DNA of 64,000 nucleotides from an uncultured Ruthenibacterium sp. (GTDB taxonomy: Bacteria; Bacillota; Clostridia; Oscillospirales; Ruminococcaceae). Shown here piece after piece: positions 10,964 through 62,177 of this stretch. The notes under the pieces were generated by a model. The model saw only the letters and a program-made list of their open reading frames with translations, was not told where the DNA came from and made no database searches. Location: contig CALXBO010000002.1 of assembly GCA_944386565.1 (NCBI GenBank), positions 1 to 64,000 of the forward strand, written 5' to 3'. Made by a program: the position numbers and the translations under genes. How positions within the stretch are numbered: position 1 is the first letter of the stretch; every line of letters starts with the position of its first letter.

Positions 10964-10993
10964 TTGACAAACGCACGTTTCACGTGCTATACT
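10964..10993 (+). promoter_or_regulatory. Strong promoter for rplJ-rplL
   Basis: TTGACA (10964-10969), an 18-base spacer and TATACT (10988-10993). It lies just after the duplicated rplA end and starts the L10 leader transcript. Confidence 0.85.
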
Positions 10994-10999
10994 TTATAA

Positions 11000-11129
11000 G
11001 CTGTTTTAAAGACAGCAGGTGCTATGCGTAAGGGCTTTGTCCCGCCTGCCGAGAAACGTGCAAAAGAACCTGAAGGAACCTTTGGTTTTTTGAGCCTCTT
11101 TCTCGCGGGAGAAAGAGGCTTTTCGTTTT
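11000..11129 (+). ncRNA. Ribosomal protein L10 leader with terminator
   Basis: The 5' leader before rplJ contains the structured core typical of L10 leaders (around ACAGCAGGTGCTATGCGTAAG and GTCCCGCCTGCC). It ends in a strong intrinsic terminator with an 11-bp stem GCCTCTTTCTC/GAGAAAGAGGC (11094-11104 with 11109-11119) followed by TTTTCGTTTTG. L10, alone or as the L10(L12)4 complex, binds such leaders to repress its own operon; here the terminator suggests control by attenuation. Confidence 0.82.
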
Positions 11130-11176
11130 GCGCCTTTGTCTTGAAGCAAGTTTACAAGCAAACGAGGTGAAACAAA

Positions 11177-21432: not shown

Positions 21433-21933
21433 ATGGACCGTCTGCTGATCCTCGGTGCGGGAGGATACGGAAAAACTGTCGCGGAAGCTGCAGAGCAAAG
21501 CGGTGCGTTCGGGGAAATTGCCTTTCTGGATGACGCCGCGCCCGGTGTGCTGGGAAAGTGCGAGGAGTACGCAGCGTTTGCCGGACGTTTTTCGCATGCC
21601 TACGCCGCGTTCGGGAACAATGCGCTGCGGGCGGTTTGGCTTGACCGGCTGGAACAGGCTGGTTTTGCGCTTCCGGTGATCGTGCATCCTCGCGCTTATG
21701 TCAGTCCCTCTGCGCAGATGAGCCCGGGGGCCGTTGTTCTGGCACTTGCCGCGGTCGGTGCGTCCGCCGTTCTGGAGCGGGGCGTGATCGTCAACATGGG
21801 CGCGATCGTCGACCACGACGCACGCGTTGAGGCGTGCGCACACATTGCGCCGGGCGCGATCGTGAAAGCATCCGTGCATGTGGACCCGCAGATCAAACTG
21901 GAGAGCGGAACGGTCGCTGTGCGGCCGGAATAA
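21433..21933 (+). CDS. NeuD/PglD-like sugar acyltransferase, short
   Basis: A 166-aa protein with the two-part NeuD/PglD design: a Rossmann-like N-terminal domain (LLILGAGGYGKTVAEAA, AFLDD) and a left-handed beta-helix (HPRAYVSPSAQ...). The active-site histidine expected in this family is present in VDHDARV. The beta-helix is shorter than usual and ends soon after it. Family members O- or N-acetylate sialic acids or amino sugars. It is clearly paralogous to the N-terminal domain of the next gene, 28 bases downstream. GGGAGG precedes the ATG. Confidence 0.72.
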   Translation: MDRLLILGAGGYGKTVAEAAEQSGAFGEIAFLDDAAPGVLGKCEEYAAFAGRFSHAYAAFGNNALRAVWLDRLEQAGFALPVIVHPRAYVSPSAQMSPGAVVLALAAVGASAVLERGVIVNMGAIVDHDARVEACAHIAPGAIVKASVHVDPQIKLESGTVAVRPE

Positions 21934-21961
21934 CAGGAATCATACGAAAAGAGGCACAAAT

Positions 21962-23593
21962 ATGGAAACTTTGCTGGTTCTCGGAGCAGGCGGGCTGGGG
22001 CGCGTCGTGGGAGAAATTGCGCTGGAAACCGGTCTGTACGACAGGACCGTCTATCTGGATGACGCTGTGAGAGGCGGGGAAGTCATCGGCAAATGCGGTG
22101 ATTACCGGAGCCTTGTAAATACATTCCCTTCCGCCATTGCGGCGTTCGGCGACAACCGCCTGCGCCTGTTCTGGACGCAGAAGCTGCAGGACGCCGGTTT
22201 TTCCGTCCCGACGCTCGTGCATCCCCGCGCGTACGTGAGCCCGTCGGCAAGCCTCGGTGCGGGAACGATCATCCAGCCGGGCGCTGTGGTGAGCACCCAT
22301 GCGAAGCTCGGCCGCGCCTGTCTGGTGAACGCGAACGCGGTGGTCGATCACGACAACATCCTTGAGGACGGTGTGCACGTCAATCTGAATGCGACGGTCA
22401 AAGCGTGGTGCCATCTGGAACCGTGCCGCCGCACGGAGGCCAACGAGCTGATCTATGCCACGCGCCGCGCCATCGACGGAGTGGAAGACCCCAATCTGGA
22501 AGACGCGCTGTTTGCGTTCAAGCTCGGAGAGAAGGCCAGTTTTGTCAAACCGTTCGGCTCCGGTCACATCAACGACACGTATGCCGTGTATCTCACGGTC
22601 GACGGGCACGATGAACTGCGCTATGTCATCCAGCGCATCAACACCGCGGTGTTCAAGAAACCGCAGGATGTCATGGAGAACATCTTCGGCGTGACGGAAT
22701 ACCTGCGCCAGCGCATCCTTGCGCGCGGGGGCGACGCCGACCGCGAAACGCTCAGCTATCTGAAAACAAAAACGGGCGCGTATTATTTTGAGGACGCAGC
22801 CGGGAGCCCGTGGCGCTGCTATCACTACATCGACAACTCCGTGTGCATCGAAGCGGCGCGCGACGCGCGTGACTTCTACAATTCCGCGCGCAGTTTCGGC
22901 TCTTTTTTGCGCGAACTGGAGGATTATCCCGCCGACACGCTCCACGAGACGATCGAGAAATTCCACGACACCCGCAGCCGGTACGCGGATTTTGAACGCG
23001 CGGTGCGCCGCGACGTGAAGAACCGCGCCAAGCTGTGCCGCGAGGAGATCGCGTTCATCACGGCCCGCAAGGCGGACTGCTCGTTTATGATGGACCTTCT
23101 GGAGGCAGGAGAACTGCCGCTGCGCGTGACGCACAACGACACCAAACTCAACAATATTCTGTTTGATGCCAAGACGGGCGAGGGGCTGTGCGTCATTGAC
23201 CTCGACACCATCATGCCCGGTCTTGCGGCGAATGATTACGGCGATTCCATCCGCTTCGGCGCTTCCACGGCGGCGGAGGACGAGCCGAATCTGGACAAAG
23301 TGCATTTTGACTATCATCTGTTCGAAGCGTATACCAAGGGATACCTCGAGACGGCAGGTCCGGCTCTGACGGAAAAAGAAAAGGAGACGCTGCCCTGGGG
23401 CGCCAAGCTGATGACGCTGGAGTGCGGGATGCGATTCCTGACGGATTTTTTGCAGGGCGATACCTATTTCAAAGTGACCCACCCGACGCACAACCTCGAG
23501 CGCTGCCGCACGCAGCTGAGACTGGTGGCGGAGATGGAAGAGCATTTTGACGAAATGCAGTGCACGGTCAGAGAACTGTCCGAACACTGCTGA
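21962..23593 (+). CDS. Fusion of NeuD-like domain and NahK-like N-acetylhexosamine 1-kinase
   Basis: A 543-aa two-domain protein. Residues 1-165 repeat the NeuD-like fold of the preceding gene (LLVLGAGGLGRVVGEIA, HPRAYVSPSAS, His130 in VVDHDN). Residues from about 180 to the end form an APH-fold kinase that closely follows N-acetylhexosamine 1-kinase: FGSGHINDTY (198-207), the catalytic loop HNDTKLNNIL with Asp393, DLDTIMPG with Asp413/Asp415, YGDSIRFGAST and ECGMRFL. NahK phosphorylates GlcNAc and GalNAc at C1 in host-glycan salvage. The fusion suggests that sensing or acylation of an amino sugar is tied to its phosphorylation; this is inference. The ATG at 21962 follows GAGG. Confidence 0.85.
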   Translation: METLLVLGAGGLGRVVGEIALETGLYDRTVYLDDAVRGGEVIGKCGDYRSLVNTFPSAIAAFGDNRLRLFWTQKLQDAGFSVPTLVHPRAYVSPSASLGAGTIIQPGAVVSTHAKLGRACLVNANAVVDHDNILEDGVHVNLNATVKAWCHLEPCRRTEANELIYATRRAIDGVEDPNLEDALFAFKLGEKASFVKPFGSGHINDTYAVYLTVDGHDELRYVIQRINTAVFKKPQDVMENIFGVTEYLRQRILARGGDADRETLSYLKTKTGAYYFEDAAGSPWRCYHYIDNSVCIEAARDARDFYNSARSFGSFLRELEDYPADTLHETIEKFHDTRSRYADFERAVRRDVKNRAKLCREEIAFITARKADCSFMMDLLEAGELPLRVTHNDTKLNNILFDAKTGEGLCVIDLDTIMPGLAANDYGDSIRFGASTAAEDEPNLDKVHFDYHLFEAYTKGYLETAGPALTEKEKETLPWGAKLMTLECGMRFLTDFLQGDTYFKVTHPTHNLERCRTQLRLVAEMEEHFDEMQCTVRELSEHC

Positions 23594-23620
23594 ACAATAA
23601 CGGTGAAGAAGGGATTTTCC

Positions 23621-24199
23621 ATGTCGGTTCCGACAAGAGAAGAAGCATGGTGCGTGCTGTGCGAACACAACAAGGAGGCGTTCCACCTGCACCATGCGCG
23701 CACGGTGGAGGCTGTGATGCGCTGGTTTGCCAATGATCTCGGCTATTCCGAAGAGGCGGATTTCTGGGCGACGGTCGGCCTGCTGCACGATCTGGATTTT
23801 GAAGAATTCCCCGGGCAGCACTGCGAGAAAACGCAGGAAATGATGCGCGCCGAGGGCTGGGACGAGCGGCTCATCCACGCTGCGGCCAGCCACGGCTACG
23901 GCCTGTGCCCGTCGAGCCCCGAGCCCGGGCATGAGATGGAAAAAGTGCTTTTTGCGTGTGACGAGCTCACGGGACTGATCGGCGCGGCTGCGCTGATGCG
24001 CCCGTCGAAAAGTGTATCGGACATGGAGCTGTCCAGCCTGAAAAAGAAGTTCAAGGACAAGAAGTTTGCCGCCGGATGCTCGCGCGACGTGATTCGCGCG
24101 GGCGCCCAGCACCTCGGCTGGGAACTGGACACACTGCTGCAAAAAACGCTCGATGCGATGAAAGCGTGCGAAGCGCAGATCGCCGCGGGCGAAGCATAA
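23621..24199 (+). CDS. HD-domain protein
   Basis: A 192-aa HD-superfamily protein: the metal-binding histidines appear in LHHARTVEAV, the HD pair in LLHDLDFE, and a later histidine in AASHGYG. HD proteins of this size are usually metal-dependent phosphohydrolases, but the substrate is not apparent. The ATG at 23621 follows GAAGAAGGG by seven bases, and the gene lies 27 bases after the kinase fusion, so it belongs to the same operon. Confidence 0.82.
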   Translation: MSVPTREEAWCVLCEHNKEAFHLHHARTVEAVMRWFANDLGYSEEADFWATVGLLHDLDFEEFPGQHCEKTQEMMRAEGWDERLIHAAASHGYGLCPSSPEPGHEMEKVLFACDELTGLIGAAALMRPSKSVSDMELSSLKKKFKDKKFAAGCSRDVIRAGAQHLGWELDTLLQKTLDAMKACEAQIAAGEA

Positions 24200-24214: not shown

Positions 24215-25480
24215 ATGCATATTGAAACACAATGCCTGCACGAAGGGTACAAGCCCAAGAACGGCGACCCGAAAGCTCTGCCGATCTATCAGAGCACCAC
24301 GTACACGTATGACTCCACCGACCACATCGGCCAGCTGTTCGATCTGACGGCGGACGGACATATGTATTCGCGCATCTCGAACCCCACGGTCGCGGCCGTG
24401 GAGGAGAAGATCGCCGCTCTGGAGGGCGGCGTCGGCGCGCTGTGCACCACGAGCGGCCAGGCGGCAACGCTCATCTCGGTGCTGAACATCTGTGTGGCCG
24501 GAGACCATCTCGTGGCCGCTTCCACGATCTACGGCGGCACCGTGAATCTGTTTGCTGTCACGCTGAAGAAATTCGGCATCGAGTGCACGTTCGTGAATGC
24601 CGACGACGATGAAGAGACCATTCAGAAGGCGTTCCGCCCGAACACGAAGCTGCTGTTCGGTGAGACGATCGCGAACCCCGCCATCGCGGTGCTCGACATT
24701 GAGAAATTTGCGCGCATCGCCCACAGCAACGGCGTGCCGCTCATTGTGGACAACACGTTCGCGACGCCGGTTCTGTGCCGCCCGTTTGAATGGGGCGCGG
24801 ACATCGTCATCCACTCCACCACGAAGTACATGGACGGCCACGCCGTTCAGGTCGGCGGCGTTGTGGTTGACTCCGGCAACTTTGACTGGACAAACGGCAA
24901 GTTCCCCGAGCTGTGTGAGCCGGACGAGAGCTATCACGGCGTGACCTATACCAAGCAGTTCGGCCGCGCGGCGTATATCACGAAGGCGCGCGTGCAGCTG
25001 ATGCGTGATTTCGGCATGTATCCTCCCGCGACGGCGGCGTTCATCCTCAACCTCGGCCTTGAGACGCTGGCCGTGCGCATGGAGCGCTACTGCCGCAACG
25101 CCGAGGCGGTGGCCGACTTCCTCGCCGCGAGCGACAAGGTCGAGTTCGTCAACTATCCCACGGTCAAGGGCAATCCCTATGCCGCGCTGCGGGAAAAATA
25201 TCTGCCGAAGGGTGCGTCCGGCGTCATTTCGTTCTCCGTCAAGGGCGGGCGCGACGATGCCGTGCGCTTTATGGACAGCCTGTCGCTGGCCAACAACGTG
25301 GTCCACGTTGCGGACATCTGCACCTGCGTGCTGCATCCCGCGTCGTCCACGCACCGCCAGCTCACCGACGAGCAGCTGGTGGCCGCGGGCATCACGCCGG
25401 GCCTCATCCGTCTGTCGGTCGGTCTCGAGCACATCGACGACATCCTCGCCGACATTCAGAAAGGCCTTGACGCGATCTGA
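24215..25480 (+). CDS. metY: O-acetylhomoserine sulfhydrylase (O-acetyl-L-homoserine aminocarboxypropyltransferase)
   Basis: A 421-aa PLP enzyme of the Cys/Met metabolism family. It makes homocysteine from O-acetylhomoserine and sulfide. Typical parts are HEGYKPKNGDPKALPIYQSTTYTYDST, SRISNPTVAAVEEKIAALEGG, GETIANP, the PLP lysine in HSTTKYMDGH (Lys204) and HPASSTHRQL. Length and the long central region (TWTNGKF-like segment) fit MetY rather than cystathionine gamma-synthase. It is the last gene before a strong terminator. Confidence 0.93.
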   Translation: MHIETQCLHEGYKPKNGDPKALPIYQSTTYTYDSTDHIGQLFDLTADGHMYSRISNPTVAAVEEKIAALEGGVGALCTTSGQAATLISVLNICVAGDHLVAASTIYGGTVNLFAVTLKKFGIECTFVNADDDEETIQKAFRPNTKLLFGETIANPAIAVLDIEKFARIAHSNGVPLIVDNTFATPVLCRPFEWGADIVIHSTTKYMDGHAVQVGGVVVDSGNFDWTNGKFPELCEPDESYHGVTYTKQFGRAAYITKARVQLMRDFGMYPPATAAFILNLGLETLAVRMERYCRNAEAVADFLAASDKVEFVNYPTVKGNPYAALREKYLPKGASGVISFSVKGGRDDAVRFMDSLSLANNVVHVADICTCVLHPASSTHRQLTDEQLVAAGITPGLIRLSVGLEHIDDILADIQKGLDAI

Positions 25481-53828: not shown

Positions 53829-54080
53829 CAAAAAGCCCCCGTCTCCCGAAGAACGTATCGTCTTCGAGAGACGAGGGCTTTCAAAGTTCAAAAGCACCCG
53901 CGGTACCACTCTCGTTGCCCCTTCAAAGAAAAGGGCCTCTCAGCATGGTCGGCCTTCCGGCGAACCATTCTCCCTGTAACGGTGGAGCTCCGTCTCCGCC
54001 TACTGCTGTTTCAGCGAAGCTGCTCGGGAGCGAGTGAACAGACACTGCATCGCCGCCTCTCACCAACCGGCAGCTCTCTG
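53829..54080 (-). ncRNA. T-box leader with leucine (CUC) specifier, before leuA
   Basis: Minus-strand leader: stem I begins AGAGAGCTG (54079-54071), the T-box GTGGTACCGCG lies at 53909-53899, and the terminator is a long stem AGCCCTCGTCTC.../...GAGACGGGGGCT followed by TTTTTGA (53879-53829). The specifier aligns as CUC (54034-54032), preceded by UCA and followed by G, which differs slightly from the more usual GAA-codon-A. Uncharged tRNA-Leu should allow read-through into leuACDB. Confidence 0.9.
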
Positions 54081-54135
54081 AAGGTGCGCGTTGTCTGTTG
54101 TTTCTCCGTCTGCGCATTTTTCTGTTAATGTCGCT

Positions 54136-61881: not shown

Positions 61882-62114
61882 AAAAAAACAGCCTTCGTCT
61901 CTTTGAACAAGAGACAAAGGCTGTGAAAAGCACTCTGCGGTACCACTCTTATTGCCGCTGGAAAGCGGCCTCTCCGCGGGGCCGGTGACCCCCTGCACGC
62001 TAACGGGTGCTCCGTCCGTACCTACTGCGCCAACGGCGGTTCAGCCGGCCGCTCCGGGATGAGTTCACCCGAGCGCGTGACTTACCGCCGTTTCACCAAA
62101 AGGGCGGCTCTCTG
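61882..62114 (-). ncRNA. T-box leader with leucine (CUC) specifier, before ilvB
   Basis: Minus-strand leader with AGAGAG (62113-62108), the specifier phrase GAA-CTC-A giving CUC (62063-62061), the T-box GTGGTACCGC (61946-61937) and a terminator stem ACAGCCTTTGTCTCTT/AAAGAGACGAAGGCTGT followed by TTTTTTT (about 61923-61882). Uncharged tRNA-Leu should induce ilvBNCD. Confidence 0.92.
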
Positions 62115-62177
62115 AAAGCAGAGGCGTCGGACTACTTGTTCCCATCAATGCGTTTGGTTGTTGATGATTTATCCCCA

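Follow-up and report, generated by a model that had tools for sequence, protein, structure and literature searches.

A shortened NeuD-like domain joined to a NahK-type N-acetylhexosamine kinase in gut Firmicutes: architecture, spread and candidate functions

Proteins of the PglD, PglB, PerB and VioB type (3bsy, 4m99, 4ea7, 7txp) combine a Rossmann-like domain with a left-handed beta-helix, and PglD-type proteins trimerise through these helices according to the accessible part of PMC8040287. The same part of that paper describes how, in Pcryo_0637, Asp41 and Asp40 hold the uracil and the ribose, His142 probably acts as the base and Gly160 provides the oxyanion hole, and CoA binding switches Pro213, near the C-terminus, to cis; PglD-type sites do not hold a free sugar. 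A second reference point is the CapE-CapF-CapG route, which converts UDP-GlcNAc to UDP-L-FucNAc by dehydration, epimerisations and reduction, with no amine uncovered in the chemistry set out in the accessible part of PMC3699295.

NahK/LnpB of Bifidobacterium longum (4ocu/4wh1) aligns with the kinase half described here along its entire length, at 44% identity and Z 45 and with every motif shared; its solved chains lack an N-terminal domain of the NeuD kind. NahK serves widely in the preparation of UDP-GlcNAc and UDP-GalNAc analogues. Joining a sugar kinase to a nucleotide-sugar domain has precedents in the fucokinase/GDP-fucose pyrophosphorylase FKP of Bacteroides and in animal GNE, which differ from the present protein in belonging to other kinase families and having other partner enzymes.

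The locus analysed here lies in a window of 64,000 nucleotides from an uncultured Ruthenibacterium sp. and encodes a short NeuD-like domain and a NahK-type kinase in one chain, next to a stand-alone NeuD-like gene. The short NeuD subfamily is called mini-NeuD, a label coined here, as a published name was not found in the literature searched. Both halves of the fusion are known families, and no described enzyme with the NeuD-NahK architecture, nor any built-in control of NahK, was found in the open-licence papers searched. A mini-NeuD subfamily placed within CapEFG operons was likewise absent from that literature.

The fused gene and its spread

The features of the locus are collected in Table 1. 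The best start of the fusion gene is the ATG that follows a 'gagg' ribosome-binding-type stretch, while the alternative start in the list of open reading frames, at 21878, would overlap the upstream NeuD gene. The initial annotation, made from the sequence without database searches, described a NeuD-like domain and a NahK-like kinase in one open reading frame. This is borne out by PDB matches to both halves and by Pfam, which places PglD_N at residues 4-75 (E 1.1e-8), Hexapep at 84-111 and APH at 195-445 (E 1.2e-16) of the 543-residue product. The motifs quoted at that stage are exact, with HNDTKLNNIL starting from H391, DLDTIMPG from D413 and YGDSIRFGAST from Y426, and H130 is present. The AF2 model of the fusion, computed as a monomer, has a pLDDT of 87.7 and a pTM of 0.68, with the mutual placement of the domains unsure.

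Table 1. Coordinates of the fusion gene, its parts and its neighbours in the window
Feature	Position	Strand	Basis
Stand-alone mini-NeuD P0002, 166 aa, paralogue of the fusion N-domain	21433..21933	+	Uninterrupted ORF, Pfam, TIGR03570, AF2
Fusion gene P0001 (mini-NeuD + predicted N-acetylhexosamine 1-kinase, 543 aa)	21962..23593	+	Uninterrupted ORF, Pfam, AF2, relatives
PglD_N Rossmann-like domain of fusion, residues ~1-78, with predicted UDP-binding Asp33-Asp34	21962..22195	+	Pfam; Asp roles from the accessible part of PMC8040287
Shortened left-handed beta-helix of fusion, residues ~79-165, with His130	22196..22456	+	Pfam, alignment, AF2 model
Conserved joint of fusion, residues 166-176 (..RR.IDGV..)	22457..22489	+	Alignments
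NahK-type kinase domain of fusion, residues 177-543	22490..23590	+	PDB sequence match; Z 45 to 4wh2, 354 residues
HDIG-like protein, 9 bases after fusion	23603..24199	+	TIGR00277 domain below its cut-off; synteny with closest relative G009
O-acetylhomoserine sulfhydrylase family gene	24215..25480	+	TIGR01326 above cut-off; genus synteny

For an assembly or annotation artefact no evidence was found; the genome that holds the window is a draft in 87 contigs. Against it, full-length fused ORFs recur in 13 of 61 related genomes, namely nine of the 11 genus members (absent from G002 and G007) and four of the 50 others, and in 28 of the 396 genomes of the family sample, spread over ten genera. A scan of named genomes adds single-ORF fusions in at least 49 loci (49 of 79 among the matches listed); the three sets overlap in part and their counts are not additive. 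The same joint is seen in genomes assembled independently, among them those of isolates such as Blautia hansenii and a complete chromosome, that of Claveliimonas bilis. A frameshift or artefact origin is rejected on this recurrence, leaving it a practically negligible probability.

The fusion covers Oscillospiraceae and Lachnospiraceae. Carriers listed in the named-genome scan include Ruthenibacterium, Anaerofilum, Fournierella, Gemmiger and Onthovicinus, and those of a Lachnospiraceae clade include Blautia, Claveliimonas, Sellimonas, Mediterraneibacter, Dorea, Parablautia and others. Separate trees were built for the NeuD half (95 rows) and the kinase half (72 rows); length filters removed none of the rows and one locus (L122) was not placed. 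The 50 fused rows make up one side of a well-supported branch in each tree (99/93 for the NeuD half, 100/99 for the kinase half). As they form one clade in both, the fusion, judged by these phylogenies, arose once. Estimates of dN/dS lie between 0.01 and 0.11 for the NeuD half and between 0.01 and 0.12 for the kinase half in 12 of 12 close pairs, values that indicate strong purifying selection on both halves.

The kinase half and its relatives

The kinase half matches NahK 4ocu in a PDB sequence search with E 3e-91, and residues 8-365 of this 367-residue half match solved NahK with E 1.8e-91. Its predicted fold superimposes on 4wh2 with Z 45.2 and an rmsd of 2.3 over 354 residues. The active-site motifs HNDTKLNN, DLDT.MPG and GDSIRFGA are all present. 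Forty-six positions are invariant in all 72 kinase rows, including H391, N392, D393, T394, K395, N397, N398, D413, D425 and R431. On these grounds the kinase half is taken to be an active HexNAc 1-kinase, and the C1 phosphorylation of GlcNAc or GalNAc first proposed for it is likely, as predicted from the complete NahK motifs and fold.

A change of specificity upon fusion was also considered. A comparison of 50 fused with 22 stand-alone rows, the latter counting one gene twice (L016 and L045), gave a single fixed difference, the conservative I417 versus V, and the idea was dropped. The fused kinases form a paralogous group of their own, which in the source genome coexists with a stand-alone NahK; this one further kinase is 60% identical to the fused one.

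Stand-alone NahK relatives occur together with GalE and a nucleotidyltransferase, several of them also with a GH112 lacto-N-biose phosphorylase, and the stand-alone kinase nearest to the fused clade (G197) sits in a GalE-nucleotidyltransferase-NahK arrangement. Because of these settings, a catabolic-type NahK of lacto-N-biose-type operons was probably duplicated and then joined once to a short NeuD. A different join may exist at a contig edge in a related genome (G036:C133), where one ORF (L046:10280-11917) contains a stand-alone-type NahK and the C-terminal part of an NTP_transferase-like protein, the latter 47% identical to the protein beside NahK in the source genome. This is a possible HexNAc kinase and nucleotidyltransferase fusion.

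The shortened NeuD half and its ligand site

The N-terminal domain of the fusion matches PglB 4m98 in a PDB sequence search (E 4e-22), and its fold gives Z 24-26 to CoA-bound PerB and PglB structures. It shares with PglD, PglB, PerB and VioB the Rossmann-like domain and beta-helix, the Asp pair and the His base. It differs from them in a helix whose CoA end is cut back by about 33 residues, or two coils, in Phe, Leu or Met in place of the histidine of the canonical GGHG loop (mostly Tyr in the stand-alone mini-NeuDs), and in the attached kinase. The beta-helices of the fusion and its neighbour had been noted as shorter than usual, and this holds. Matches to TIGR03570 stop at model position 157 of 202 in the fusion (111.1 bits) and at 164 of 202 in the neighbour (115 bits), both below the curated cut-off of 160.8, and the predicted structure of the neighbour ends about 33-38 residues short of the 4m98, PerB and PglD ends. 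By structure alignment, neighbour residue 165-166 corresponds to 4m99 370, PerB 178, PglD 162 and Pcryo_0637 180. The fused model aligns as far as Pcryo_0637 182 and meets 4m99 402 only loosely, through fusion residue 180. Fused and stand-alone mini-NeuDs are about two helix coils shorter than PglD-type proteins, and the Pro213 region of Pcryo_0637, the helix end that closes on CoA, has no counterpart in the fusion or the neighbour.

The ligand site is strongly conserved. In the fusion rows D33, D34, H130 and D131 are each found in 50 of 50, N123 in 49 of 50 and K147 in 48 of 50. D131 is better conserved here than in the stand-alone proteins, whose column holds 24 D, 2 E, 14 G and 3 other residues (n=43). 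The oxyanion Gly column is Ala in 45 of 50 fusions, in an alignment uncertain by one residue. Stand-alone mini-NeuDs of CapE-CapF-CapG operons equal the fused half in length and have the C-terminal motif K..N..K.EAG.V in common with it; they differ in being unfused and in often having DHG where fusions have DHD after the His.

A UDP-sugar pocket kept without a full CoA site fits a kinase with a UDP-sugar-binding module. The preferred reading, adopted tentatively, is that the fusion is an N-acetylhexosamine 1-kinase carrying a trimerising, UDP-sugar-binding mini-NeuD module, most plausibly for feedback control. Three chains would assemble through the beta-helix, and the kinase would phosphorylate recycled GlcNAc or GalNAc at C1, feeding UDP-HexNAc for capsule and wall precursors. 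The mini-NeuD module may hold a UDP-HexNAc where PglD-type proteins bind their substrate, and the bound nucleotide sugar would then adjust kinase output. The fusion persists where the CapG/FucNAc route seems absent, which favours a common ligand such as UDP-GlcNAc; a common UDP-HexNAc is thus more likely than a FucNAc intermediate. The initial annotation had the pair either acylating or sensing a sugar, and sequence and context together lean towards UDP-sugar binding. Its further proposal, that the sugar is channelled to phosphorylation, appears unlikely, since the substrates expected from the two families are nucleotide-activated for PglD-type proteins and free HexNAc for the kinase.

Such a gated kinase may let the cell tune the activation of recycled amino sugar for its surface coat. 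If a UDP-sugar-binding domain is indeed fused to NahK, it would suggest how gut bacteria divide amino sugars between energy supply and capsule synthesis, and a UDP-sugar-gated NahK would give a controllable enzyme.

Two points count against a pure sensor. It would not need the invariant H130 and D131, and the AF2 model is that of a monomer in which the placement of the domains is unsure. Conservation of His130 and Asp131, along with Asn123 and the uridine Asp pair, keeps an acetyltransferase role of the NeuD half in play. The protein would then be bifunctional, with the mini-NeuD half still acting as an acetyl-CoA-dependent O- or N-acetyltransferase on a surface-polysaccharide UDP-sugar and the kinase feeding the same pathway. 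The fold similarity to CoA-bound PerB and PglB is consistent with this, and acetyltransferases of other families can make do with five beta-helix coils. Counting against acetylation are the missing CoA-closing helix end, the Ala in the oxyanion Gly column and the lack of an amine in the CapEFG route as far as PMC3699295 describes it. A bifunctional enzyme is accordingly regarded as possible and somewhat doubtful. A missing 4-amino-sugar pathway was also considered as an argument against acetylation and proved uninformative, with DegT and Polysacc_synt_2 matches in 31 of 31 fusion genomes.

A third explanation is that the NeuD half serves only as a scaffold for oligomerisation, through which the kinase becomes trimeric or more stable, its site being disused. 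The trimerisation of PglD-type beta-helices is in keeping with it, as is the greater divergence of the NeuD half between the window fusion and its closest relative (dN 0.18, against 0.05 in the kinase half). Ligand-site residues invariant in 50 of 50 rows across two bacterial families are unexpected for a mere scaffold, however, and this explanation is considered improbable.

The stand-alone neighbour and the capsule context

The neighbour lies 28 bases upstream of the fusion on the same strand. It matches PglD_N with E 3.5e-12, and its AF2 model (pLDDT 97.2, pTM 0.91) gives Z 25.9 to 4m98 over 165 residues. It had been described as a second copy of the acyltransferase half. The two are indeed paralogous, but the neighbour is an old paralogue and no tandem duplicate, being 45% identical to the fusion N-domain and clustering in the NeuD tree with its genus counterparts, apart from the fused clade; a recent tandem duplication is rejected on this placement.

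The suggestion that both proteins form a mixed oligomer is favoured by their adjacency and by the pairing, which is seen in nine of the nine fusion genomes of the genus. In the family sample an adjacent stand-alone gene accompanies seven of 28 fusions, six of them in the genus and one in G079, leaving 21 of 28 without such a neighbour. G002 has a stand-alone mini-NeuD at the equivalent place and has no fusion. Because the pairing hardly extends beyond one genus and the neighbour did not arise by recent duplication, an obligatory mixed oligomer is unsupported, and a fusion acting in such an oligomer is thought very improbable.

Downstream, the HDIG-like gene is present in the window and in the closest relative, and the sulfhydrylase gene is a usual neighbour of the NeuD or fusion gene in the genus, with no evident link to sugar metabolism.

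Mini-NeuDs without a kinase occur mainly with Cap genes. Among the matches listed, 22 of 30 fusion-less loci have a CapE, CapF or CapG homologue in the flank examined, and in 17 of 30 the mini-NeuD is directly flanked by CapF on one side and CapG on the other. In the family sample, 19 of the 21 genomes (of 396) with a mini-NeuD (E<=1e-30) and no fusion are CapG-positive. The CapF-mini-NeuD-CapG order (L118-L140, e.g. L125:4700-5212) is found in Faecalibacterium, Flavonifractor, Treponema, Elusimicrobium and others, a setting in which an N-acetyltransferase substrate is not obvious. The subfamily thereby sits inside the well-known UDP-L-FucNAc pathway, where the chemistry in the accessible part of PMC3699295 leaves it no job.

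A broader proposal, rather unlikely as it stands, is that a capsule-sugar acetyltransferase shortened at its CoA end, with its UDP-sugar pocket kept, was joined once to a salvage kinase and became an allosteric, UDP-HexNAc-gated trimeric HexNAc 1-kinase in gut Firmicutes; by the same logic the stand-alone CapEFG mini-NeuDs would be UDP-sugar-binding regulators or partners and not acetyltransferases.

Fusion loci themselves show fewer Cap homologues in the flank examined (5/49 among the matches listed; L094, L107, L112, L113 and L115). At the genome level, CapG is found in 24 of 28 fusion genomes versus 57 of 368 others in the family sample, where the Fisher test ignores phylogeny. By genus within the window's family, the figures are 7/10 fusion genera versus 31/116 others (p 0.008). 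In the Lachnospiraceae clade, a close CapG is present in 10 of 28 fusion genomes versus 34 of 248 background genomes (p 0.006, Fisher, phylogeny ignored). Two shared fusion genomes were removed from that background, in which further ones may remain, and the 28 include four (L088, L096, L107, L136) with other family labels, assigned to the clade by the NeuD tree.

This context bears on both leading readings. The fusions of Dorea and Parablautia lie within capsule operons with CapG, Wzz, CpsB and Wzc homologues, and some Cap-less loci (L132, L141, L142, L148) pair a mini-NeuD with a PglF-type dehydratase and a sugar transferase, a setting that would presumably supply an amine substrate; both favour the bifunctional enzyme. 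The absence of a close CapG from 18 of the 28 fusion genomes of the Lachnospiraceae clade tells against it, and the weak CapG link in this clade likewise counts against the capsule context of the preferred UDP-sugar-sensing kinase.

Whether the fused domain substitutes for a mini-NeuD lost from the CapEFG cassette was also considered. Eleven of the 12 CapE regions examined in fusion genomes are cassettes without a mini-NeuD, the twelfth (L159) being the second cassette of G336. Substitution is rejected, since 38 of 81 CapG-positive genomes have no mini-NeuD in either form (E<=1e-30) and its absence is therefore not compensated in general.

Further arrangements were seen around these loci. In the source genome (C12, L149:7036-9238) CapE adjoins CapG without CapF, and the nearest CapF homologue, 55% identical to that of G004, is on contig C27. 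In Candidatus Pullichristensenella a CapE-CapF-miniNeuD-CapG cassette is followed, about 0.95 kb downstream, by an unfused, distant NahK (40%; L125:7335-8462). None of the three Rfam matches in the window is a regulatory RNA near the operon; they are two T-box leaders (53864-54121 and 61907-62157, both on the minus strand) and an L10 leader (10988-11134, plus strand), all far from the fusion. Finally, a multi-spanning membrane protein, possibly a polymerase or ligase, lies downstream of the fusion in Gemmiger and Fournierella relatives and of a stand-alone mini-NeuD in Fournierella massiliensis (copies at L043:10741-12237, L044:7854-9191 and L049:9583-10893, the L043 copy having no Pfam match).
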